Assembly (NCBI GenBank): GCA_028280845.1
Contig: JANQKZ010000019.1
Location: forward strand, 124,001 to 188,000
Length of the DNA stretch: 64,000 bases
DNA from: Opitutales bacterium
GTDB taxonomy: Bacteria > Verrucomicrobiota > Verrucomicrobiia > Opitutales > JABSRG01
Direction: 5' to 3'
The translations under genes were made by a program, and so were the position numbers. Under the pieces are notes generated by a model that saw only the letters and a list, made by a program, of their open reading frames with translations, made no database searches and was not told the DNA's origin. Every line of letters starts with the position of its first letter. Position 1 is the first letter of the stretch. Shown in pieces: positions 17,522 to 56,688 of this stretch.

Positions 17522-18472
17522 CTACTGGTTTAGCCGCATCTGGCGCCGGTAGCGGGCGGGGGATATCCCGCGGTTTCTGCTGAATGCCCTGGAAAGGGTG
17601 GCCGCATCTGAGTAACCCGTACGTTCCGCAATCTGCTCCATGCCCAGTTCGGTATAGGCCAACAATTCTGAAGCCAGCCTTAATCGCAGGTAATAGAGAC
17701 GCTTTATCGGGCTCAGGCCATAGGCGAGATGACAAAGGCGGCGAAGATGCTCTTCACTGACCCGAGCGATGCTGGCCAGAGACTCGCAGGTCCAATCCCG
17801 GGAAATGTCCGCTTCCACGGCAATCCACAGTCGCCGGAGCCGTGGGTCGAGTTCGTTACCGGCCAATGCCCTCCGGGTATAGGTGATCACCAGCTGTACC
17901 CAGGATTCCATGGTCAATTCATCCTTCAAATGAATCGTTTCATTATAAAGACCCAGCAGGGGGAAGGATAAGAGATTGGGATCCACGGAAATGATATACG
18001 GCTGATCCCTTCTCATATAGGACCGAATACTTTCCGGCCCATCTCCTTCAAAAATAACCCATGAGAACTCCATTTCCTTTCCGGGAGAAGCAAAGTAAGC
18101 GTGTTGTTTTTTCCGGGGAGTGATGTACGCCATCCCGGGGCTTAAGGTGACCCAGCGGTCATCAATCAGCGCTACGGCCTCCCCAGAGCAACAGACGAGC
18201 ATCTGGGTCGTTACCGGATTTTTTCGAATGAACAGATTCCCTCTTCGAGTGACGGTATGCCCTCCCATAATGATTCCATATTTTTCCAAAAGAATGGGAA
18301 AATCCAAATGGCTGGTAATTCTAGCCCAGGTATCGGGACCCACATCGTGGGTTTCGGCTAAATTACCGGGACTTGGATAGGGACTGGCTCCTAGCCAAAC
18401 ATCCATGAACAGATTATCTCTTTGATGGGTTTCATCGTAAAAATAAGGCCTGAAGCCTTTCAATAAGAGCAT
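17522..18472 (-). CDS. AraC-family transcriptional regulator
   Basis: A 316-residue activator-type regulator. The N-terminal half (about 30-170) looks like an AraC cupin sensor (GGHTVTRRGNLFIRK, then LIDDRWVTLSPGMAYITPRKKQHAYF). The C-terminal 100 residues hold the double helix-turn-helix: CESLASIARVSEEHLRRLCH and the consensus MEQIAERTGYSDAATLSRAFSRNRGISPARYR. It is divergent from the glucuronidase-like gene at 18713, its probable target. A decayed copy of its first 60 codons lies at 22.7 kb in front of the TonB receptor, so this regulator region has been duplicated. Confidence 0.92.
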   Translation of the reverse strand: MLLLKGFRPYFYDETHQRDNLFMDVWLGASPYPSPGNLAETHDVGPDTWARITSHLDFPILLEKYGIIMGGHTVTRRGNLFIRKNPVTTQMLVCCSGEAVALIDDRWVTLSPGMAYITPRKKQHAYFASPGKEMEFSWVIFEGDGPESIRSYMRRDQPYIISVDPNLLSFPLLGLYNETIHLKDELTMESWVQLVITYTRRALAGNELDPRLRRLWIAVEADISRDWTCESLASIARVSEEHLRRLCHLAYGLSPIKRLYYLRLRLASELLAYTELGMEQIAERTGYSDAATLSRAFSRNRGISPARYRRQMRLNQ

Positions 18473-22440: not shown

Positions 22441-22692
22441 CCCGGCGTGGGCCAGGCTCACCCCAAAGCGAAAGCCGTCATCGGAACAGCCCGCACCGGT
22501 AAAACCGGGGTCTTCCCGGAAGCCGGCACTTCCGACGATTTTTAGATCGTAGCAAAATCTCGCTGGAGTAGCTTCAGCTGAACCGGGCTACTCGACGTCT
22601 ATCACCACGCGGCGGGAAGCAAACAACGAAGTGATCGGACTACGATCCTTTACTTCTCAGATCAGGTGTATTGGCTTTCCCGATTCTCCCAG

Positions 22693-22850
22693 GCATCAGG
22701 TCACACTTCGTGGGTTTCGGCTAAATTATATGGATCTGCATAGGGACCGAGCCCCAACCGGATATTCATTTCCAGGTCATCATTTCTTCGGGTCTCACAG
22801 TAGCTATTAGATTTCAAAGCCTTTTCTTAGGGGAATCACAGGAAAATCAT
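22693..22850 (-). pseudogene. Decayed N-terminal fragment of an AraC regulator
   Basis: Read on the minus strand it gives Y-C-E-T-R-R-N-D-D-L-E-M-N-I-R-L-G-L-G-P then YADPYNLAETHEV, closely matching residues 12-42 of the AraC protein at 17522-18472 (YDETHQRDNLFMDVWLGASP, then YPSPGNLAETHDV). It is broken by an in-frame TGA (22701-22703), two stops near the former start, and a one-base frameshift. The rest of the gene is absent. The same orientation and distance to the shared element show that the block 18.3-18.6 kb was duplicated. Confidence 0.8.
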
Positions 22851-26581: not shown

Positions 26582-26618
26582 TTATGGTGCCCCGGGCCGC
26601 CGGCCCGGGGCACCATAA
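26582..26618. terminator. Perfect 17-bp palindrome after the TonB receptor
   Basis: TTATGGTGCCCCGGGCC and its exact reverse complement face each other across a 3-base loop, 43 bp after the receptor stop and 25 bp before the symporter start. There is no U-tract, so it is either a Rho-independent-like attenuator of unusual type, an mRNA-stabilising hairpin that separates receptor from symporter expression, or a REP-like element. Confidence 0.5.
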
Positions 26619-42478: not shown

Positions 42479-42880
42479 CTATCCCGGCCACCGCTCAAAA
42501 CCCGCCAGCACAAAATGACGGTCAAAGGTAAATACTCGATCAATCCCCCGCTCGATCATCAATGCAAAGGAAACACAATCCGTAAAACTGACCTGCTGGT
42601 CTGAAAACTTTGACATCCACCCGAGCGCAGAAATCTCGTGCTCGGCCTTGGGCCTGAGGATGTTCAATCGTGACGATGCGTAGATATACTTTCCACGCTC
42701 TACTGCAAATGCTGCTCCTGCCACACGTCCAAGGTAAGTGAAGACTTCATCGAGAACAAAGTTGCTCGTATATAATCTTCGCTCCTCGACCAAGCGTTCC
42801 CAATATTCCTTTGCCGCTTTGTGGTATTGGTCACGCTTTACATAGCGCGCAATAAAGGGACCTGTATCGACAAAGATCAC
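42479..42880 (-). CDS. PIN-domain ribonuclease toxin (VapC-like)
   Basis: A 133-residue PIN-domain protein, the expected size for a VapC toxin, which cleaves RNA using an acidic metal site. The four acidic residues are visible: Asp5 (MIFVDTGPFIA), Glu45 (FVLDEVFTYL), Asp101 (VSFTDCVSFALM) and Asp120 (VFTFDRHF). Its start overlaps the antitoxin stop by 4 bp, so the two are co-translated. It sits between a broken RAYT transposase and REP-like repeats in a small accessory island. Confidence 0.88.
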   Translation of the reverse strand: MIFVDTGPFIARYVKRDQYHKAAKEYWERLVEERRLYTSNFVLDEVFTYLGRVAGAAFAVERGKYIYASSRLNILRPKAEHEISALGWMSKFSDQQVSFTDCVSFALMIERGIDRVFTFDRHFVLAGFERWPG

Positions 42881-43116
42881 CGCTCGTCGTAAAGAAAAGA
42901 ATCATGATGAGAGGCACCATCAATGGGGGCTTTACCTTTGTATACAGCTTGGTCCTCAAAGAGTCGGTCCCTCCCTTGCGCCACTTTACCCTGTAGCTTC
43001 GCTTCCATCGCTTCACGAATAAATTCTCCCAGGGATTGCCCAGCCTCCAGAGCCTCCAGCTTCGCCCGTTGTTTCAAGTCCCTGGGCAACATAATGGTCG
43101 TCCTATCCATATGCAT
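42877..43116 (-). CDS. Ribbon-helix-helix antitoxin (VapB-like)
   Basis: A 79-residue protein whose first 45 residues form a ribbon-helix-helix DNA-binding domain (DRTTIMLPRDLKQRAKLEAL, then GQSLGEFIREAMEAKL). The C-terminal tail (AVYKGKAPIDGASHHDSFLYDE) is the likely toxin-binding part. Two ATG codons are possible, 43116 and 43110; both lie inside a perfect 20-bp palindrome. It would neutralise the PIN toxin and repress its own promoter. A TATAAA at 43134-43139 and TTGGAT at 43155-43160 on this strand suggest a leader of only about 10-17 bases. Confidence 0.85.
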   Translation of the reverse strand: MHMDRTTIMLPRDLKQRAKLEALEAGQSLGEFIREAMEAKLQGKVAQGRDRLFEDQAVYKGKAPIDGASHHDSFLYDER

Positions 43117-45445: not shown

Positions 45446-45562
45446 GCGATTTAGGATGGAGAATTTCACATCGACCCGCTTAGCTTGAGGGCTCTCTGCC
45501 TCTATGAATCCTGATAAATCGGTTGACCCGAATGGCCCTAAGTAAACTCCTTTTCAGGGGTT

Positions 45563-45617
45563 GGCGGCCATCCTGCAAGCAGGAGGCCCTACGAAATAAG
45601 CCCAGTTGTAGGGCCCA
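45563..45617. repeat. Pair of inverted REP-like elements
   Basis: One element ends in CTGCAAGCAGGAGGCCCTAC (to 45592), and a second begins GTAGGGCCC (45608) in the opposite orientation, 15 bp away. Both share the CCCTAC end and a CAAGC core with the elements around the RAYT gene. They lie in the region before the propeller gene, whose open frame runs artificially through them. Confidence 0.55.
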
Positions 45618-45753
45618 TTGCTTGTCACCGTGGCTAGAAAATTTGGATATTTACCTTAACTTAGGGCCATTCTCGGTGGCCCCCTATCCGCTATCCGAAG
45701 GGAACATCACCGGAGCCCAATCGGAAGAACAACTCAGCTCCGCCAATAAAGCT

Positions 45754-47337
45754 ATGAAATCACCTCACCCCTATTGGATACTTTCCGCCTGGCTTCTCTG
45801 GGTTACCCACCCCGCCCTCGCCACCGAGGCAATTTCCCCACTGGACATTTCATTTACACGGCAGGCGGTGCAGCGCCTGATTTTTGATCCCGACCAGGCG
45901 ATTCCCCTATCCATGTTGAGGCCGGAAACCTCGATCACCCTCGCCGTCGAACATCCCACCATACCTGTCTCAGGCGGAGATACGGTTTACCAAATGGACA
46001 GGGGAAGCTTAACCGCATCTGCGGAGGAGCCCTCGGAGTCCGCTCTCTGGATCGGTGGCTTTAACCCCTTTGCTACCTACGATGTCCACTTCGAAGGCTG
46101 GACCGGCGATGCGCTGGAAGCCGGCGTGGAGCTTGCCACCCCCACCAATGAACACCGGGTCATCCTGCTCGCCAGATTTCATGACAACCGGTGCACCTCC
46201 CTGCGTTGGCAAGTCTTCGTTGGCGGAGAGGAACAAATAAATGAAACGATCCCGTTGGAAACGCCGGTCTCCAAGCCCTTCGTCTTCCGGGTACAAATGC
46301 TGGGATCGGGCCTGAATGTTTTCGTGGAGCAGCATGGTGTCAATCAGCTCGTGCTCACGCGGGACTACACGGAGATGATCGACCTCCGCCGCAAGGAGCA
46401 TATCCGGTCGTTCGAGTTTCGTCTGCTCACCCGCTTGAGTGAGCGCCAATCCGTGACCGTGCGACAAGCTTCGGGCGCCTTGACCACCGGGGTAGGCCAG
46501 GCCGATATCCGGGCCATCACCTACGAAGACGGATCCACCTTCATGGATCAGGGGCGCCTCTGGTTCACCATGTCGGTTCGCGGGCGACGCCTCCCTCACC
46601 CCATGCAGGGGATCTTCAGCCTGAACCCCTCCGTCTTCGATCTCCGCTTTGAAGGGATTGTCGTCTTTGATCGGGGCGATGGTCTCCTGCGCAACGATAT
46701 GGCCTCGCACCTCTTCTACGACCGGAACGCAAAAGAATGGAGAGGCCTCACCGTCGGCTTCTCCGTTTACGGAGATCCCGGGTCGAGAGAACGCAAAGTC
46801 ATCTGGTCGGCCCAATCGCCACGCGACCCGCGCTTCGGATTTTCCATCATGCATTCCGGCCCCGTCAGCATGCCGCTTCGCGGAGAGGACCCCCATATCA
46901 TTTATGATAATGAAGTAGGTAAGTGGCGAGTCCTCGCCTGCTCTAAGGGCGACCCCGGGTGGCCCGCCACCCTCTACGAAAGCGACCGCTGGAATGGTCC
47001 CTACGAACTGATCGCGGGCCCCGCCACTGTCAACGGCACCGGTTGCCAGCTCCAGAAATTCGGGGGAAAATGGTACGCCCTCTTCGGCAGCTCCGATCGG
47101 AAATTCTATGTCTATTCTTATCCGGAGCTGGAACCGCTAGGAGCCCTCGACATGCACCGCCCCCCATGGGATGACACCGCCAATACCCGCTGCTGGCCCA
47201 ACGTCATCCCCCTCCCCGAAGGCTACCCCGCCCCCTATATTGCCCTGTCCATGGACCGCTCCAATTTTCCCAATATGGGCAAAAGCTGGACCTACGGTTC
47301 CCTGTATCTATATCATGGATACACCAAGGAGAATTAA
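45754..47337 (+). CDS. Exported protein with a glycosidase-like beta-propeller domain
   Basis: A 527-residue exported protein (signal peptide MKSPHPYWILSAWLLWVTHPALA). I start at 45754 because the longer frame from 45523 runs through REP-like repeats. The C-terminal half has repeated propeller-blade phrases used by GH32/GH43-type enzymes: DPHIIYDNEVGKWRVLACSKGD, ATLYESDRWNGPYELI and GTGCQLQKFGGKWYALFGS. The N-terminal half (about 30-230) looks like a beta-sandwich. I cannot assign a family; a retaining or inverting carbohydrate-active role is inferred from the blades and from the SASA/CE6-type esterase that follows. Its last 70 bases begin a block that is duplicated at 49.3 kb. Confidence 0.6.
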   Translation: MKSPHPYWILSAWLLWVTHPALATEAISPLDISFTRQAVQRLIFDPDQAIPLSMLRPETSITLAVEHPTIPVSGGDTVYQMDRGSLTASAEEPSESALWIGGFNPFATYDVHFEGWTGDALEAGVELATPTNEHRVILLARFHDNRCTSLRWQVFVGGEEQINETIPLETPVSKPFVFRVQMLGSGLNVFVEQHGVNQLVLTRDYTEMIDLRRKEHIRSFEFRLLTRLSERQSVTVRQASGALTTGVGQADIRAITYEDGSTFMDQGRLWFTMSVRGRRLPHPMQGIFSLNPSVFDLRFEGIVVFDRGDGLLRNDMASHLFYDRNAKEWRGLTVGFSVYGDPGSRERKVIWSAQSPRDPRFGFSIMHSGPVSMPLRGEDPHIIYDNEVGKWRVLACSKGDPGWPATLYESDRWNGPYELIAGPATVNGTGCQLQKFGGKWYALFGSSDRKFYVYSYPELEPLGALDMHRPPWDDTANTRCWPNVIPLPEGYPAPYIALSMDRSNFPNMGKSWTYGSLYLYHGYTKEN

Positions 47338-47482
47338 TCGAATCCGAATTTCCTATCAGGAATCCCTTTCTCTTTCCCCTTCCTTTTCTTTTTCATATCC
47401 GAAATCCGAATCTCAAATCTGATATCCCCCAATGCCCCATCTGCTTATCCTCCTGCTTGCCCTGGGGTTAGCCTCAGCCCCC
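47271..47482 (+). repeat. Left copy of a ~210-bp direct repeat flanking the helicase
   Basis: It comprises the last 67 bases of the propeller gene, the intergenic stretch and the first 17 codons of an esterase gene. The same order and wording recur at 49288-49497 (for example CTACGG, TATATCATGGATACA, CAAGGAGAA, CTCAAATCT, and ATGCCCCA at the start codon), with scattered differences. The match ends in the esterase signal peptide. Confidence 0.85.
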
Positions 47483-47611
47483 GAGATGAGGGTTGTGAAG
47501 GATCCTTCCCTTCTCTCCGTTTCCTCCTGTGAAAGGAAAGATACCTTTCTAGAGCATTCTGCGTTTCGAAAATTTCGTGATTCCGATAGTCGGCAACGGA
47601 CATCCTCTTAA
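47432..47611 (+). pseudogene. Truncated start of an acetylesterase gene
   Basis: It opens with MPHLLILLLALGLASA, nearly identical to the signal peptide of the complete esterase at 49442. After residue 16 the sequence becomes unrelated (PEMRVVKDPSLLSVSS) and stops after 59 codons. The downstream remainder of the esterase is missing here. It is the left-hand stub left when the helicase segment entered this junction. Confidence 0.75.
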
Positions 47612-47808
47612 TGCGGATACTGGAAGTGCCGATAAAAAACCTTGCACGGGAAAAGGAAACCTGTCCTATTCCTCACTTTTGCGGGTAGCTCGCCTTCTTC
47701 AGTAGCGGCAATCCCCCCTGATTCGGTCTGTCATCGGTGAGCGATTGTTTTTTGGGATAACACATACGCATTTCATCGAACGCCCGATGCCGGCATAACC
47801 CAGAAAAC
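47483..47808. other. Helicase leader region
   Basis: It follows the truncated esterase start and precedes the helicase. Apart from the tail of the stub frame I see no gene. It is part of the inserted segment because it has no counterpart near 49.5 kb. It may carry the helicase promoter; I recognise no clear -35/-10 pair. Confidence 0.4.
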
Positions 47809-49149
47809 ATGGCATCTAGATTGATCATGACTCCGAATTCCTTCGAAGCGTTGCCCTTGGCTACGCCTATTCAAACCGCCCTGAAACAGGCGGGATACAC
47901 CACCCCCTCCCCCATTCAAGCGGAAGCCATTCCATCTCTGCTGGAAGGGACTGACCTCCTTGGCTGTGCACAAACCGGAACGGGAAAAACGGCCGCCTTT
48001 GCCCTACCTATTCTAAACCATATTCTTCAGGACTCCGACCAGCCTTCACCCAAAGCGGTACACCATTTAATCCTCGCTCCAACCCGAGAACTGGCGGTTC
48101 AGATTGCGGACAGTATTCTGAAATACGGGAAGGATGTCGACTTTTCCCTGGGATTAGTGCACGGAGGGGTATCCCAGCGTCCGCAAGTAAAAGCGCTTTT
48201 GGAAGGCCTTGATATCTTGGTAGCCACCCCCGGCCGCTTGTTGGATCTTATGGACCAAGGCTTTGTGGACCTATCCCGCGTGGACAGCTTTGTCCTCGAT
48301 GAAGCAGATCGGATGCTGGACATGGGATTCATCAACGACATCAGAAAAATTGCTCAGGAACTTCCCGAGGACCGACAGTCCATTATGTTTTCAGCAACCA
48401 TGGCACCCGCCATAAAGAAGCTGGCCGATTCGCTGTTAAACGTCCCCGTAGAAATTCACATCGCACCGGAACACAAAACCGCCGAAAAAGTTGACCATTG
48501 TATTCGATTCATTGACCCGAAGGATAAGGAGGCATCTTTGCGGAATTTGCTGAGCTCACAATTGGAATCCAAAGAGAGGAACCTGAGCCTGGTCTTTTGC
48601 CGCACAAAACATGGGGCGCGCAAATTGGCACTCAAATTGAATCGCAAGGGAATCGCCTCCGATTCCATCCATGGGAATAAAACCCAAGTAGCTCGCCAGA
48701 AAACTTTGGAGCGTTTCCGCAAGGGCAAGATCGATGTTCTGGTAGCCACGGATGTTGCCGCCCGGGGCATTGATGTAAAAAACATCACCCTGGTGGTGAA
48801 TTACGACCTACCCATGGAACCGGAAAACTACATTCATCGCATCGGTCGGACTGCAAGGGCGGGAGAACAAGGCAAGGCGGTCTCCCTCTGTTCTTCCAAT
48901 GAAATCAAGCTGCTGAAGTTTATCGAAAAAGATTTGAATACCCCCGTGCGGGTCGATCCGGATCATGAACATCATGATGCCTTGGCCGCCAAGCGGGCCA
49001 GTGGAGAGGGGCCATCCTTTCGGTCCTCTCATTCAAGGACTACATCGGGCAGGAAAAAGGCGTTTGTTCCCTTTCATAAGCGTGGCAAGTCGAGTGGAAG
49101 AGAAGACTTCCGTAAAAGGGGAAAACGCAATAGACGAACAGCTGCCTAA
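47809..49149 (+). CDS. DEAD-box ATP-dependent RNA helicase (RhlE-like)
   Basis: A 446-residue cytoplasmic helicase that unwinds structured RNA; RhlE-type members help ribosome assembly and cold adaptation. All motifs are present: Q motif (SFEALPLATPIQTALKQAG), motif I AQTGTGKT (54-61), PTREL, VATPGRLLDL, DEAD at 164-167, SAT, and in the second domain VATDVAARGIDV and HRIGRTARAG. A basic tail (RKKAFVPFHKRGKSSGREDFRKRGKR) probably binds RNA. A second ATG at 47827 is a possible start. It interrupts a carbohydrate gene pair and is flanked by direct repeats of that junction, so it was inserted. Confidence 0.95.
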   Translation: MASRLIMTPNSFEALPLATPIQTALKQAGYTTPSPIQAEAIPSLLEGTDLLGCAQTGTGKTAAFALPILNHILQDSDQPSPKAVHHLILAPTRELAVQIADSILKYGKDVDFSLGLVHGGVSQRPQVKALLEGLDILVATPGRLLDLMDQGFVDLSRVDSFVLDEADRMLDMGFINDIRKIAQELPEDRQSIMFSATMAPAIKKLADSLLNVPVEIHIAPEHKTAEKVDHCIRFIDPKDKEASLRNLLSSQLESKERNLSLVFCRTKHGARKLALKLNRKGIASDSIHGNKTQVARQKTLERFRKGKIDVLVATDVAARGIDVKNITLVVNYDLPMEPENYIHRIGRTARAGEQGKAVSLCSSNEIKLLKFIEKDLNTPVRVDPDHEHHDALAAKRASGEGPSFRSSHSRTTSGRKKAFVPFHKRGKSSGREDFRKRGKRNRRTAA

Positions 49150-49287
49150 GGCCACCCCTAACCGGTTCCGTTTCCCCCGGGGAGCATGAACGGGCTGTGG
49201 GAGATGAGCAACTGCATGACTCCTACCCTTCTCAAAAGATCAGGCATCAAACATCGCCTGCCAAACCACCATAGCTAAATTCACGTC

Positions 49288-49497
49288 CAATATGGGTAGT
49301 TGCCAACCTACGGCTCCCTCCACTATATCATGGATACATCAAGGAGAACTAAACCCATCCGAATTCCCTACCCGAACTCCCTTTCGCTTTCCCCTTTCCT
49401 TTTCCTATCCCATTCCAAATCTCAAATCTACTACCCCCCCCATGCCCCACCTGCTGCTCCTCCTCCTTGCCCTGGGGCTGGCGTCAGCCTCGCCTGA
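49288..49497 (+). repeat. Right copy of the ~210-bp direct repeat flanking the helicase
   Basis: It starts with the remnant of the propeller gene end (CAATATGGG, CCTACGGCTCCCT, TATATCATGGATAC) with no propeller gene before it, and continues through the intergenic stretch into the esterase start. The unmatched remainder on the other side of each copy shows that the repeats mark the two ends of the inserted segment. Confidence 0.85.
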
Positions 49498-50233
49498 CAT
49501 TCCCCCGATCAAATCTTACCCTAAAGACCAGGTCCACCTCTTCCTCCTGGCTGGCCAATCCAACATGGCGGGCCGAGGCGAGTTAAACCCGGAGTCGGAT
49601 CCCATCCATCCGCGCATTTTCGCTTTGTCCGAAGACGGAACATGGGTTCCTGCCCAACACCCAATCCACTACGATAAACCCATCGCCGGCGTCGGCCTGG
49701 CCAAATCCTTCGCCCTCAGGCTGGTAGAGGAAGATCCAGACCTCGTGATCGGACTGATCCCCACGGCCTGCGGGGGGTCGCCCATCTCCTCATGGGAGCC
49801 CGGCGGTTACCACAAGGGAACACAGAGCCATCCCTATGACGACGCTATGGCACGCACTGCCCGCGCCCGCAAAGATGGAACCCTCAAAGCCATTCTCTGG
49901 CACCAGGGCGAGGCCGACAGTAAACCAGGGCTGGCCTCTAAATACCAAGACCGCCTCCAACAACTCATTCTTCGGTTCCGGCAGGAATTAGACTTAGCCG
50001 AGTTACCCTTCATCATGGGCCAACTGGGTCAGTTTCCCGAAAATCCTTGGGATGAATTTAAGCATCGGGTGAATGCAGCCCACATAACACTCGCCGAAAA
50101 AATGGAGGCCGTCGCCTTCGTCCCCTCCGACCAGCTTACCTCCAAGCCGGACAACATCCACTTCAACACAGAGTCTTTAAGGGAGTTTGGTCGCCGCTAT
50201 GCTCAAGCTTACCTGAAGGTGAAAAGGGAATAA
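49442..50233 (+). CDS. Exported SGNH-fold acetylesterase (SASA/CE6-like)
   Basis: A 263-residue exported esterase. The start at 49442 gives MPHLLLLLLALGLASA; the frame from 49292 would run through the repeat and is rejected. The nucleophile segment is LLAGQSNMAGRG (Ser40), the second block LIPTACGGSPISSW, the third LWHQGEADSKPG, and the His block DNIHFNTESLREFG. These are the sialate-O-acetylesterase/CE6 acetylxylan-esterase motifs. It would remove acetyl groups from polysaccharide before glycosidases act. It originally followed the propeller gene, before the helicase was inserted. Confidence 0.88.
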   Translation: MPHLLLLLLALGLASASPDIPPIKSYPKDQVHLFLLAGQSNMAGRGELNPESDPIHPRIFALSEDGTWVPAQHPIHYDKPIAGVGLAKSFALRLVEEDPDLVIGLIPTACGGSPISSWEPGGYHKGTQSHPYDDAMARTARARKDGTLKAILWHQGEADSKPGLASKYQDRLQQLILRFRQELDLAELPFIMGQLGQFPENPWDEFKHRVNAAHITLAEKMEAVAFVPSDQLTSKPDNIHFNTESLREFGRRYAQAYLKVKRE

Positions 50234-50290: not shown

Positions 50291-51328
50291 TCAGCCCCCC
50301 CTCACCGTAACGCCTTCTTTCCATTCCCCTTCAATAAGAATCCAGAGAGGATCGTTGGGAACCCCGCTTTCGTTGCGAGTCAGTTGGTCTACGACGAGGT
50401 CCACCGCCACCTTACCCGCACTCGCCCATTTCGGATTCATCCCTGCAATCTTCCCATAGGACGAATGCCATCCCAGGTGAGCGTAACTGATCTTCCCGGG
50501 TTGGTCGTAGCCGAGACGATCCAGCTGGTGAGGTAAGTCTTTTCCAACTCCAAGGACACAGTCGGGCTCATACGTTTTGATCCAGGCGTCCAAGCGATCC
50601 AGGTCACTTTTGTCATCCGTACGCTCGCGATAAAACAGTGGGATCAAGTCTTCCTTGGCAATATTGAGATCTTCAGAATGCAAAGCGGCGCTGCGTTTAA
50701 AATCTGAGGAACGCTCGAAGATTTTCGGGATCACGACCCCAAACCGACGGTACCCTCGCGACTGCAGCAGCTTGATGACAAAAATTAGGTTCCCGTAGTG
50801 ATTCACCTCAATCCGATGTAATTTCGGATGGAAGATTGCTCCCCCAATTGAAGCCATGGCCAATTCACTGAGATCAAGCCCATCCAAGTTGACCTCACGC
50901 TCCATGAAATTCTCAAAAATGACTCCTCGAATCCCTCGGGCTCGAATAATATCTAACAAGCGCTTCGGGTTCATGCCTGGTTCATACCAACGAAACTCCT
51001 CCACCTTGAGACCCAGAAATTCCGCCTGGCGGTGGATGCTCTGCCGCATCGATTCTGGATTCCCCTCCGGATCATAGTCTGGAGGTTGGCAATGAATCTC
51101 GGCAATGACAGGAGAAATCGAAGAGGGGTGCTTGTAGCGTACGCTCGACATGACAGCGGATACTATCGGGTGCGCCTCATATCCCAATTCTTCGGCCGCC
51201 TCCATGATCCGATCCCGCGTCTCCGGCTTATGTCCCGGTAATCCCCGCAAGACACGGCTGACCGTGGCCTTGGACACGCCAACCTTGTCGGCAATGGCTT
51301 GAATACTGGGGAGAGGTCGTTGGGGCAT
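50291..51328 (-). CDS. LacI-family transcriptional regulator
   Basis: A 345-residue repressor. Residues 8-30 are the LacI helix-turn-helix (SIQAIADKVGVSKATVSRVLRG), with the hinge following (TRDRIMEAAEELGYEA). The rest is a periplasmic-binding-protein-like sensor (IRARGIRGVIFENFME, GYRRFGVVIPKIFER, DCVLGVGKDLPHQLDRLG) that would bind a sugar. It is divergent from the sulfatase-symporter-hydrolase operon at 51.6 kb. A candidate operator lies in that gap, and three more precede the receptor/sulfatase pair at 61 kb. It is the best candidate regulator for the sulfated-sugar genes in this half of the window. Confidence 0.93.
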   Translation of the reverse strand: MPQRPLPSIQAIADKVGVSKATVSRVLRGLPGHKPETRDRIMEAAEELGYEAHPIVSAVMSSVRYKHPSSISPVIAEIHCQPPDYDPEGNPESMRQSIHRQAEFLGLKVEEFRWYEPGMNPKRLLDIIRARGIRGVIFENFMEREVNLDGLDLSELAMASIGGAIFHPKLHRIEVNHYGNLIFVIKLLQSRGYRRFGVVIPKIFERSSDFKRSAALHSEDLNIAKEDLIPLFYRERTDDKSDLDRLDAWIKTYEPDCVLGVGKDLPHQLDRLGYDQPGKISYAHLGWHSSYGKIAGMNPKWASAGKVAVDLVVDQLTRNESGVPNDPLWILIEGEWKEGVTVRGG

Positions 51329-51426
51329 GGAGTAGAAGCGATAAGCCTGTATAATGGGTATTTAGACGGGGTAAACCCGGGGTCAACCCGAATCGATGTG
51401 TGGACGCGATGCTGGCGGCCTGGAGA

Positions 51427-51439
51427 TGTAACAGTTACT
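51427..51439. promoter_or_regulatory. Candidate LacI-type operator between lacI and the sulfatase
   Basis: TGTAAC-A-GTTACT matches TGNAAC-N-GTTNCA except for the last base. It lies 98 bp upstream of the LacI start and 158 bp upstream of the sulfatase, so one site could control both directions, including the regulator itself. Confidence 0.5.
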
Positions 51440-51597
51440 TTTCCGGACGACTGACTCTTTGTTGTCGGAAACCCACCCTATGGCAATTCTTCAATCCACC
51501 GAGTCCGACCCCAACAGAACGATTGGGCCGTTTTTGGACCCGCCCGTATATGGACAAATATAACTCTGTTTCTACCCACAGCCCCCGTCTCTGAATC

Positions 51598-52974
51598 ATG
51601 GCATCTAACAAACACCCCAATGTGATTGTTTTCCTCACGGATCAACAGCGCCATGATACGACCGGCGCAGGAGGCAGCCCGTTGGGGCTCACTCCGAATT
51701 TCGACCGCATCGCTCATCAAGGCACGCATTTGACCCACAGCTTTACCTGTCAACCGGTGTGTGGACCGGCCCGGGCCTGCTTGCAGACAGGAGTGTACGC
51801 CACTGAACATGGGGTCTGGCGCAATGGGTTCGAACCGCATCCTCATCTCGACACTCTAGCTGACCACTTCAATGCTGCCGGCTACCATACCGGTTATATT
51901 GGCAAGTGGCATTTGGCAGCAGCCAACCATCATGGACCCGTCCCCAAACACTTGCAGGGAGGCTACCAGAGCTGGTTGGGAGCCAATATCCTGGAGTTTG
52001 TCTCCGATGCTTTCCACACTCGGATGTGGGATGAAAACGACCAGGAACACCGCTTTCCCGGTTATCGGGTCGATGCGGTGACCGACGCAGCCATCCGTCA
52101 TGTTCAGCAGCGCAGCGAGCAGGATAATCCCTTCTTTCTTTTTCTATCTCTGCTGGAGCCCCACCACCAGAACAGCTCCGATTCCTACCCCGCCCCCCCC
52201 GGGTATGAGCAGCAGTATCAATCGGCCGATCTCCCACCGGACCTCCGGGTGCCCGGAGGAACCGCAGTGCAGCATTGGCCGGGGTATTGCGGCATGATCA
52301 AACGGATCGATGAAGCCTTTGGTCGTCTCATGGATGCTCTGGCCAGCCTGGGCATCAAAGACGATACCGTCGTTATGTTCACCTCGGACCATGGGAACCA
52401 TTTCAAAACCCGCAACCAGGAATACAAACGCTCCTGCCACGACGCCTCCATTCGAGTACCCACTGCCATCTGTGGTCCCGGCTTCGATGGCGGAGGCGCC
52501 ATTCGCAATCTGACCAGCTTGATCGATCTTCCCCCCACGCTTCTGGATGCTGCAGGAATTGAGGTTCCGGACATGATGCAGGGCCGCTCGCTGCTTCCGC
52601 TTGTCCGAGATCCTGATCACTCCTGGCCGGATGAGGTATTCGTCCAGATCAGTGAAAGCCAGACGGGTCGCGCGGTGCGCACCGCGCGTTGGAAGTATTC
52701 CGTCAGGGCCCCAGGCACGGATGAAGAAGGCCAGCCCATTTCTCAGCCGTCTTCCGACCTCTATATGGACGATTGTCTTTATGACTTGGAAGCGGACCCC
52801 TGGGAATTGACCAACCTTGCCGGCTTCACCTCACATACCGAAGTGGTCCGGGTCATGCGGGAACGTTTGGTCAAACGCATGCTAGCGGCAGGGGAACTTG
52901 AGCCAAAATTTGTCGACGCTCCACCTAATTCACCCTACGAACATGTAGTGACTCCAGAAGAAGCTTTCCTTTAA
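51598..52974 (+). CDS. S1-family sulfatase without signal peptide
   Basis: A 458-residue Cys-type sulfatase starting MASNKHPNVIVFLTDQQRHD, with no export signal. The maturation motif is Cys55-Gly-Pro-Ala-Arg59 (CQPVCGPARACL), and the distal metal motif is VMFTSDHGNHFKTRN. It is the first gene of an operon with an SSS symporter (57 bp later) and a glucuronidase-like hydrolase, and lies opposite the LacI gene. The arrangement suggests that the symporter brings in the sulfated sugar and this enzyme desulfates it in the cytoplasm. Confidence 0.92.
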   Translation: MASNKHPNVIVFLTDQQRHDTTGAGGSPLGLTPNFDRIAHQGTHLTHSFTCQPVCGPARACLQTGVYATEHGVWRNGFEPHPHLDTLADHFNAAGYHTGYIGKWHLAAANHHGPVPKHLQGGYQSWLGANILEFVSDAFHTRMWDENDQEHRFPGYRVDAVTDAAIRHVQQRSEQDNPFFLFLSLLEPHHQNSSDSYPAPPGYEQQYQSADLPPDLRVPGGTAVQHWPGYCGMIKRIDEAFGRLMDALASLGIKDDTVVMFTSDHGNHFKTRNQEYKRSCHDASIRVPTAICGPGFDGGGAIRNLTSLIDLPPTLLDAAGIEVPDMMQGRSLLPLVRDPDHSWPDEVFVQISESQTGRAVRTARWKYSVRAPGTDEEGQPISQPSSDLYMDDCLYDLEADPWELTNLAGFTSHTEVVRVMRERLVKRMLAAGELEPKFVDAPPNSPYEHVVTPEEAFL

Positions 52975-53031
52975 AGCCCCCACCTCACCCCGCCCCATCC
53001 TGAGGTCTCCCCCACGGCCTTCACTCCCGCT

Positions 53032-54729
53032 ATGGGAACCTTTTTATCCTTTCTCTTTTTCACTGCTCTCGTAGGCGCCATCACCTACTGGCGGACTCAC
53101 TCCGAGAAATTGGGAAGCCGCAAAGGGTATTTTCTTGCCGGTCGCAGCCTGAATGGCTGGGTCATCGCGGGCTCGCTCATGCTGACGAACCTGAGCGCAG
53201 CCAACATCACCGGAATGACCGCCCAAGTCTATGGAGGCAGCCTGGCTCCCATTGCCTGGACGGTTACCGTAATCCCGCCCCTCATCCTCTTTGCCGCCGT
53301 CATCTTACCCGTTTTCTTGAAAAACGGATACGCCACAATCCCTGAGTTTTTGGAAAACCGCTATGGGACCAGTACCCGCCAGATCGTTACCGGCCTCTTC
53401 CTCTTTAACTATATCCTCGGCGGCATGCCCGTGGCCCTCTATGGCGGAGCCATCGCCATCATCCACCTCTTCGACGTCCCCGCCCTGCTCAACCTGAATG
53501 AAACCGCCTGCGTCTGGATCATTGTCTGGGCCCTGGGTATCGTCGGCGGCCTCTATGCCCTGTTTGGTGGCCTTAAGGGGGTCGCCATTTCCGACACCTT
53601 AAATGGGATTGGTCTCCTGATTGGGGGCTTACTCGTTTTCATCTTTGGGGCGATTGCCATCGGTCAGGGCCACTTCGGCTCCGGTTTGGAAAAGATGTTT
53701 ACCGAAAACACGGAAAAACTGAATGCTATCGGAGATCAGGCCGACCTCGTCCCCTTTTCCGTCCTCTTCACCGGCATGCTGGTACACAACCTGTTTTACT
53801 GGTGCGCGAATCAATTTATCGTCCAGCGCTGTTTTGGGGCGCGCAGCTTGAAAGAGGGACAGAAAGGTGTCTTGATTGCTGGCTACTTCAAAATCCTCAA
53901 TGTCTTTTACATTGCCATCCCCGGCGTAATTGCCTTTCACCTCTTCGGCCCGGGGCACTTTGACAATAACGACTGGGCCTACCCCACTCTCGTCCGCGAG
54001 GTGATGCCCGGTATCTTTGTCGGCTTTTTTGCTGCCGTCATTTTTGGCGCCGTCCTGAGTACCTTTAACAGCGTCCTCAACAGCTCTGTTACCCTCTTCG
54101 CTCTCGATATCTATAAACCCCTCTGGGGGAAGCAGGCAGACGAGGCCCAGCTGGTCCGTACCAGCAAGCGGGTGGGGTCCATCCTGGTCATCGTCACCCT
54201 CTTTGTCGCCCCTTTGATCATGTATTTTGAGCAGGGCATTTTTCAATACATGGTGAAGACCGAGATCCTGTTTGGTTCTCCCATCTTCCTGGTCCTCTTC
54301 ATGGGCTACTTTTCCAAGTCGGGTTCCACCCGGGCAGCCAACATCACCCTGATTTCCTACCTCGTTTCCCTGGTCCTGTTTCAGCATATCCTGTCGATCC
54401 ACCTGCACTTCCTCCACATCCTGGCGATCCTGTTCTCCCTGCATGTCGGTCTCTATCTTTTACTCTCCAAAGCTTTTCCCCGCGGAGATATTCACCCAAC
54501 TCAACCCGACACCGGAGGAATCGACCTTCGCCCCTGGCGCTGGTTACCTCATGTGAGTATCGGGGGCTTGCTCTTTATGCTCCTCACCTATGTCGCGTTC
54601 TCCCCGCTGGGTCTGGTCCGGGAATCGATGTCCATCTCCGTGGACTACCTGTTTATCGGCGGCGGGCTCCTCATGGCTGCTGGCATCTTTGGGATCCCTA
54701 CCCTCCTTCGCCTGCGGGGTCGGGCCTGA
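53032..54729 (+). CDS. Sodium:solute symporter (SSS family)
   Basis: A 565-residue inner-membrane transporter with about 13-14 TM segments. The SSS pattern is present: GYFLAGRSLNGWVIAGSLMLTNLSAANITGMTAQVYGG near the N-terminus (TM2 with the Na+ site), and VIFGAVLSTFNSVLNSSVTLFALDIY in the TM8 region, which forms the second half of the Na+ site. SglT-type relatives import sugars. Its place after a signal-less sulfatase and before an exported hydrolase suggests uptake of a monosaccharide, possibly sulfated. Length is normal for the family. Confidence 0.93.
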   Translation: MGTFLSFLFFTALVGAITYWRTHSEKLGSRKGYFLAGRSLNGWVIAGSLMLTNLSAANITGMTAQVYGGSLAPIAWTVTVIPPLILFAAVILPVFLKNGYATIPEFLENRYGTSTRQIVTGLFLFNYILGGMPVALYGGAIAIIHLFDVPALLNLNETACVWIIVWALGIVGGLYALFGGLKGVAISDTLNGIGLLIGGLLVFIFGAIAIGQGHFGSGLEKMFTENTEKLNAIGDQADLVPFSVLFTGMLVHNLFYWCANQFIVQRCFGARSLKEGQKGVLIAGYFKILNVFYIAIPGVIAFHLFGPGHFDNNDWAYPTLVREVMPGIFVGFFAAVIFGAVLSTFNSVLNSSVTLFALDIYKPLWGKQADEAQLVRTSKRVGSILVIVTLFVAPLIMYFEQGIFQYMVKTEILFGSPIFLVLFMGYFSKSGSTRAANITLISYLVSLVLFQHILSIHLHFLHILAILFSLHVGLYLLLSKAFPRGDIHPTQPDTGGIDLRPWRWLPHVSIGGLLFMLLTYVAFSPLGLVRESMSISVDYLFIGGGLLMAAGIFGIPTLLRLRGRA

Positions 54730-54798
54730 TCTCCCGGGCGCGCCAACGCGACCCAGCCTTCTGTTCTCATGCTAATTCAGCCCAATAAATTATCCTCC

Positions 54799-56604
54799 AT
54801 GTTTCCCTGGCACCTTCCCATCAGTCTGGTATTTACCTTCTCGGTCACCGCAACCGCTCTACTGGCAGGACCCCTCCCCGAGGGCGTGCCTCTCCGGGGA
54901 TGGACCCTCCTCTCCGACGATGAATCCAAAGCCATGAAGGCGATCGAAGCGGCGGCGGAGTATGACATCAACCACCTCCAGCTCTCCCATAGGATCATCC
55001 ATGATCTCTACGAAGTAGACGATCCCAAGACCCGGGACCTGGTCAACCGCTTGATCGATGCCGCTCATGAGGTCGGTATCGAGGAGGTCGTCCTCTGGGA
55101 CCACGCCTTATATCCACTGGAGTACTACCCGGAAGAATTCCGCACCGGTCCCGGAGGCCTGATCAATCTCGACAACCCCGAATTCTGGGAGTGGCTCAAG
55201 GCGGATTATCGCCGGATGCTGGACCTCGTCCCCAAAACCGATGGCATCATCCTCACCTTTATCGAGACGGGGGCCTACGTGGAGGATCAGTATTCCGAAA
55301 GCATGTCCACGGAAGCTGAACGGCTTGCCGCCGTGGTCAACGCCGTCGCCGATGTCGTCATTGGTGAACGCGGCCTCTCCCTCTATGCCCGCACCTTCTC
55401 CTACACCCGGGAGGAGTTTGCCAGCGTCCTGGCTGCCGTGTCCCTGTTTGAACGTCCGGAAGTGCGGCTCATGATGAAGGAGACCCCTCACGACTTTTTC
55501 ATCTTCCATCCCCCCAATGAATCCATCGGCTCCATCGACCGCCCCACCCTCGTGGAATACGATGCCGCCGGTGAATATTTCGGACAGGCCGTGATCGCCC
55601 CTACCATGCCTGAACTCGTCCTCAACCGCTGGCGGGCCGTCGGTTCCCGTCCCAATGTGATGGGCTACGTGGCCCGGACCGACCGCTATGGACTCACGCA
55701 GATCGTGGGCCGGGCCGGGGAGATCAACTTGTGGGCCCTCCACCGCGCCAATCAGGATCCGCAGGTCACCGCCGAGCAGATCTACGACGAGTTCATTACC
55801 AAACGCTACGGAGCCGAAGCCATCCCTTACCTGAAACCAGCTTTTCGCCGAGCCCTGGACATTGTTTCCGCCTCCCTCTACACCTTGGGGACAGACAAAG
55901 GGAACCGGCACTCCCGGTTAAATTATGATACCCACACGTCAAGCTATGTCCGTCATGTATCGGGAAAGTGGATCGAGCCTCCCATCGTCTTTATCCGGCA
56001 CGGCCTGAACCGGGAGTTCCACTTCTGGCGCGACGTGGTCGATTTCCTCGCACCCGGCTATATCAAGGACATGGACCTTCCGTATTGGGAGGAAGTCCCG
56101 GAGGTGCAGACCTCCGGCTGGATTCGTCCTGGCGATCAGCTGAATGAGGATTACCTGCGGCTCATCCTTGCCGAAAAGGACTATGGCCTCTCCCAGGCCA
56201 AGGCCGCCCTGGCCGACATTGAGCAAGCTAAATCCGTCTTAGCCACCGCAGATTACGAAGAGCTTCACGGTCTTTTCGAGCGCACCCTCCTCACCGCCCA
56301 GCTGCACCGCGCGGTCGCCGGCGCCTACTTTGGCTTTCGCATCTGGTGCAAGGGAGAGGATTACCGCAGCGAATTCGTCATCCACACGATCCAGAAAGGC
56401 CTGGAAGGCATCCAGGATTTGGCGCCCAAGGTCAGAGACTACCCCGGCCAGGTCCCCTCCGGCCAATGGAATTGGCGCGCCGACGCCGACCGCGCCATCC
56501 GCTACTTACGAGGAATCGCCATCGAGGGCTGGCCCGCCGAGACCAACGGCCACCCCAACCCCGAGGCCGGCATGCGTTTCCCCTACCAGCAATCAGACGA
56601 GTAA
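54799..56604 (+). CDS. Exported hydrolase with an alpha-glucuronidase-like barrel
   Basis: A 601-residue exported protein. The start at 54799 gives a hydrophobic signal (MFPWHLPISLVFTFSVTATALLA); 10 further residues are open upstream. A TIM-barrel-like core follows (YDINHLQLSHRIIHDLYEV, EEVVLWDHALYPLEYYPEEF, TDGIILTFIETGAYV, LSLYARTFSYTREEFASVL), then a helical C-terminal region (KDYGLSQAKAALADIEQAK). The layout and the helical tail recall GH67 alpha-glucuronidases, but no motif makes this certain. It closes the lacI-opposed operon. It lacks the small domain found in front of the barrel in the 18.7-kb protein. Confidence 0.55.
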   Translation: MFPWHLPISLVFTFSVTATALLAGPLPEGVPLRGWTLLSDDESKAMKAIEAAAEYDINHLQLSHRIIHDLYEVDDPKTRDLVNRLIDAAHEVGIEEVVLWDHALYPLEYYPEEFRTGPGGLINLDNPEFWEWLKADYRRMLDLVPKTDGIILTFIETGAYVEDQYSESMSTEAERLAAVVNAVADVVIGERGLSLYARTFSYTREEFASVLAAVSLFERPEVRLMMKETPHDFFIFHPPNESIGSIDRPTLVEYDAAGEYFGQAVIAPTMPELVLNRWRAVGSRPNVMGYVARTDRYGLTQIVGRAGEINLWALHRANQDPQVTAEQIYDEFITKRYGAEAIPYLKPAFRRALDIVSASLYTLGTDKGNRHSRLNYDTHTSSYVRHVSGKWIEPPIVFIRHGLNREFHFWRDVVDFLAPGYIKDMDLPYWEEVPEVQTSGWIRPGDQLNEDYLRLILAEKDYGLSQAKAALADIEQAKSVLATADYEELHGLFERTLLTAQLHRAVAGAYFGFRIWCKGEDYRSEFVIHTIQKGLEGIQDLAPKVRDYPGQVPSGQWNWRADADRAIRYLRGIAIEGWPAETNGHPNPEAGMRFPYQQSDE

Positions 56605-56627: not shown

Positions 56628-56688
56628 GGAGCGACCTTGCGTCGCGATAGAATAACCCAAAGATTTTATCGTGACGCAAGGTCGCTCC
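56628..56688. terminator. Long inverted repeat between convergent genes
   Basis: GGAGCGACCTTGCGTCGCGA at 56628 and its reverse complement, which ends at 56688, pair over 22 bp with a single mismatch around a 17-base loop. It separates the glucuronidase-like gene from the convergent phosphatase, where a bidirectional terminator would be expected. The GGAGCGACCTTGCGTC wording is also typical of REP-type elements, so it may be mobile. Confidence 0.6.

Follow-up and report, generated by a model that had tools for sequence, protein, structure and literature searches.

The helicase gene and the repeats around it

In the stretch analysed here, a gene for an RhlE-like DEAD-box RNA helicase lies between two genes for carbohydrate-active proteins, a secreted protein (P) and an esterase of the SASA family (E), and a copy of a P-E junction is found on either side of the helicase. 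All coordinates refer to the window, i.e. the whole stretch of 64,000 nucleotides that was analysed. The features of the locus, with the basis for each in brackets, are as follows.

45523..47337, plus strand: P, secreted carbohydrate-active protein, complete, likely start about 45760 (ORF, AlphaFold/Foldseek)
47270..47479, plus strand: left repeat copy, spanning the P 3' end, the intergenic part and codons 1-16 of E (alignment, self-BLAST, genome search)
47432..47611, plus strand: truncated esterase start, the frame continuing for 43 unrelated residues to a stop, 59 aa in total (translation)
47480..47808, no strand: left spacer from repeat to helicase, 329 bp (single copy in the genome; no Rfam match)
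47809..49149, plus strand: RhlE-like DEAD-box RNA helicase with a basic C-terminal tail, intact (Pfam, NCBIfam, tree)
49150..49286, no strand: right spacer from helicase to right repeat, 137 bp (resembles P and E no more than shuffles do)
49287..49489, plus strand: right repeat copy, spanning a decayed P tail, the intergenic part and codons 1-16 of E (alignment, self-BLAST, translation)
49442..50233, plus strand: E, SASA-family carbohydrate esterase with a signal peptide, intact (Pfam SASA 5e-62)

Local alignment of the two repeat copies gave a score of 191, while the best of 200 shuffles reached 33; in a self-BLAST of the window the copies are 78.7% identical over 211 columns (E 2e-40), which makes them by far the strongest repeat present, the runner-up having an E value of 6e-10. 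The duplication of about 210 bp around the helicase, proposed in a preliminary description of this DNA, is thus confirmed, with borders that shift by a few bases. Across the 4.79 Mb and 62 contigs of the genome the junction repeat occurs just twice, and a dispersed-repeat origin of the intergenic stretch was therefore rejected. Allowing up to 3 mismatches, a search for the 19-base motif CCGAATCTCAAATCTGATA gave four matches compared with one for the reversed control, and two of the four are the repeat itself. The window also holds a 67-base direct repeat, 81% identical, at 18318-18384 and 22683-22747.

Each repeat copy runs from the final 22-23 codons of P across the intergenic stretch and ends 16 codons into E. 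In the left copy the end of P is intact, with its stop at 47335-47337, and is followed by the esterase start MPHLLILLLALGLASA; in the right copy the P tail carries two one-base gaps as well as several non-synonymous substitutions, while the esterase start MPHLLLLLLALGLASA continues into the complete esterase from 49442. P is thus complete on the left side only and E on the right side only, and translation bears out the earlier reading of a 16-residue esterase start on the left and a propeller-end remnant on the right. The truncated esterase frame has no Pfam match. Past 47479 no E-like DNA is detectable beyond the left copy, and no P remnant is detectable ahead of the right copy, where the spacer matches P or E no better than shuffles do.

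Between the two copies, 19.5% of the aligned intergenic bases differ, in addition to 8 gap columns, and the coding divergence is similar, at 15-17%. The longest exact match between them is 16 bases. This is too short for the usual k-mer misjoin during assembly and speaks against the view that the locus is an assembly artefact or a chimera of two strains, as does its position in the interior of a 223-kb contig with a composition inside the range of the window. The assembly does consist of 62 contigs and may be metagenome-derived, but we regard an artefact as extremely improbable.

The gene cluster into which the helicase is set contains sulfatases, the SASA esterase, a LacI regulator and a sodium:solute symporter; it is a polysaccharide cluster in which the helicase is the odd gene. 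E is a SASA esterase, passing PF03629 with 209.9 bits against a cut-off of 24.8, and its homologues reach 66% identity. For P, no Pfam or NCBIfam family scores above cut-off. Its AlphaFold model is of moderate confidence (pLDDT 68.8), and the Foldseek matches of the model are to CBM66 and galectins as well as to the propellers of GH43, GH62, GH117 and BT_0996. The resemblance to these propellers makes the earlier label of P as a propeller plausible at the level of predicted structure. Judged from the model, P probably has a five-bladed propeller preceded by a galectin/CBM66-like domain, and it might represent an undescribed glycoside hydrolase family. The 611-aa protein encoded at 54769-56604 is, like P, without a Pfam or NCBIfam family above cut-off. 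A few kb before P, at 42479-43116, there is a VapBC-like pair of a PIN-domain toxin and a likely ribbon-helix-helix antitoxin, the match of the latter being under the Pfam cut-off. Self-complementary stretches that are probably terminators follow cluster genes at 26582-26618 (37 bases) and 56628-56688 (61 bases).

Content and origin of the insert

Apart from the helicase, the ORF list and Pfam give no plausible gene of appreciable size in the insert. In the helicase both the DEAD (9.4e-49) and the Helicase_C (7.2e-33) domains are present, in agreement with its earlier naming as a DEAD-box helicase. The best NCBIfam model is RhlE with 420 bits, under the equivalog cut-off of 743, and we therefore call the protein RhlE-like only. 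A tree of 30 homologues from the order places it in a supported group of seven (99/97) together with helicases of families f1, f10, f20 and f21, among them that of the one other genome of the host's family that was included. Because it groups with related families, the helicase looks like a native housekeeping gene of the resident type. We rejected a foreign origin, as the GC3 of 0.557 is low yet inside the range of the window's genes and the tree places the gene with related families; a plasmid-borne origin was rejected as well, the only matches being below 60% identity. The neighbourhood of the helicase differs between families and is shared only by two genomes of a single genus, so that its position appears to be free.

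The ORFs of the insert include no gene for a transposase, integrase or other recombinase, and a comparison of the borders for terminal inverted repeats gave a score of 13 against a shuffle mean of 14.8, with none above shuffles; the absence of both, noted in the preliminary description, is hence borne out. In the search of the host's own genome the left spacer matched only itself, no structured RNA was recognised in the insert by Rfam, and promoter- and terminator-like sites did not rise above shuffles.

A single gene flanked by direct repeats, with the 3' end of a host gene restored as at integrase attachment sites, could be the remnant of a small mobile element that was driven by an integrase or transposase and carried the helicase; the 210-bp repeats would then be its attachment sites or a target duplication. 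Such an origin is very unlikely, however, given an insert that lacks a recombinase gene and borders that lack an inverted repeat, a left spacer present once in the genome, a helicase of native appearance, and repeats far longer than the usual target duplications.

Related clusters and the presumed ancestral junction

We found no genome of the same genus, and the one genome of the same family has neither P nor E. Searches in sampled genomes of the order, the class and the phylum returned relatives of P with up to 68% identity, but in none of the sampled genomes does P lie beside E. The adjacency was also sought around P relatives from Rikenellaceae and Planctomycetaceae (37-39% identical), where no neighbour matches E. 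The closest P relative found (68%) is in a genome from another class of the phylum (G598, L125); it has one TAG inside the matched stretch and sits among several short toxin-antitoxin-like ORFs.

Two related clusters are informative on the position of the helicase, which is present in neither. In G313 (L126) there are homologues of the sulfatase (77%), the LacI regulator (82%), E (66%) and the gene at 54769 (71%), the last of these coming after E. In G883 (L129) a homologue of the 54769 gene (73%) is directly followed by P (60%). Since the P-E adjacency is missing in both, these clusters are not true empty sites. The preliminary description had looked to sister genomes for the history of the locus: related clusters without the helicase do exist, and the position of the helicase is unconserved, while the undisturbed P-E junction was not found. 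As P was never found beside E, an intact ancestral junction, and with it the ancestral gene order P-E, is something we infer rather than observe.

The identity of ribosomal protein L2 to that of the host is 64% for G313, 62% for G883 and 59% for G598. Within 50291-56604, LacI (82%), the sulfatase (77%) and the 54769 gene (71-73%) are thus closer to their counterparts in other families of the order than is L2 (62-64%), and this greater likeness suggests, with L2 as the one marker of comparison, that the cluster genes have been exchanged horizontally.

Origin of the duplication and comparison with known systems

We favour, with some reserve, the explanation that homologous recombination or break repair, as opposed to a transposase, placed a resident helicase gene within the P-E pair and duplicated the junction in the process. 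The RhlE-like gene, about 1.8 kb together with the spacers on both sides, would have entered the P-E pair of a polysaccharide-degradation cluster, placing one copy of the junction of roughly 210 bp on either side of the helicase. The 3' end of P would have been preserved in this way, as would the start of E and the region upstream of it, while the orphan halves, the E start on the left and the P tail on the right, would then have decayed. That both flanking genes are whole is accounted for by the repeats, each copy making good what the insertion would otherwise have severed. Repair- or recombination-driven insertion with duplication of the junction is the simplest account of the locus. Of the earlier proposal of an insertion with a long target duplication, or a recombination between tandem duplicates, it can be said that it agrees with the anatomy and that the lack of a transposase or inverted repeat was verified; the undisturbed junction was not found. 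The recombination route and, from context alone, the direction of the event (helicase into the pair, as opposed to units of the pair around the helicase) are what we infer here.

It is also conceivable, though we consider it less probable, that two P-E units already about 20% diverged came to flank the helicase, after which the redundant copies of E on the left and P on the right were lost almost completely. The units could have been tandem paralogues, or the second version could have been imported from a related bacterium, for example on an integrated circle bearing the helicase and a P-E junction. The similar divergence of intergenic and coding parts is in line with this reading, as are the cluster genes that exceed core identity, with LacI at 82% and the sulfatase at 77% vs 64% for L2 in G313, and P at 68% vs 59% for L2 in G598; because these genes are closer than the core protein, diverged versions of the cluster DNA probably move between species. 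The 16 codons of the E start differ at 7 bases, of which 5 are third positions, and one residue is altered. Had all of these changes fallen on one unconstrained copy, the chance of such a pattern would be 0.007, but with a realistic split between a free and a constrained copy it is 0.05-0.31, and the codon test is therefore weak. The codon-level evidence thus leans weakly towards copies that diverged before the event, as opposed to copies identical at birth. Against pre-diverged units, the two gaps and several non-synonymous changes in the right P tail are as expected from plain decay, no further trace of the second E or P extends beyond the repeat, and more steps are needed.

In either case the locus is an old rearrangement scar of a known, ordinary kind; nothing in it points to a new element or system, and the helicase scar alone alters no general view. 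It does show how a core gene can enter an exchangeable polysaccharide cluster with both separated genes unharmed.

As in Campbell-type integration of circular DNA by a single crossover, a homologous segment is repeated on both sides and both flanking genes are preserved; unlike in that case, there are no vector or replicon genes. The islands that tyrosine recombinases insert at the 3' ends of genes likewise leave the host 3' end twice, one intact and one orphan, but here there is no integrase, the repeat reaches across the intergenic stretch into the following gene, and the cargo is one housekeeping-type helicase.

No bacterial precedent of exactly such a scar was found among the listed papers of the literature searched. 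In Arabidopsis, transposed genes frequently lie between direct repeats that derive from genes and correspond to the target site; this was explained by excision of a circle, followed by reintegration through homologous recombination, and the case was made by a donor site and an empty site (PMC2869330). The present locus differs from the plant one (PMC2869330) in its bacterial host and in the divergence of about 20% between the repeat copies; neither an empty nor a donor site was found here. The likeness is one of anatomy: a single relocated gene, direct repeats of the target gene that measure tens to hundreds of bases in both cases, and the lack of transposon ends (PMC2869330). By analogy, bacterial housekeeping genes might relocate as excised circles that reintegrate through short (about 200 bp), imperfect homology, which we consider unlikely; if true, it would amount to a transposase-free movement of genes that leaves gene-derived direct repeats behind, like that proposed for plants.
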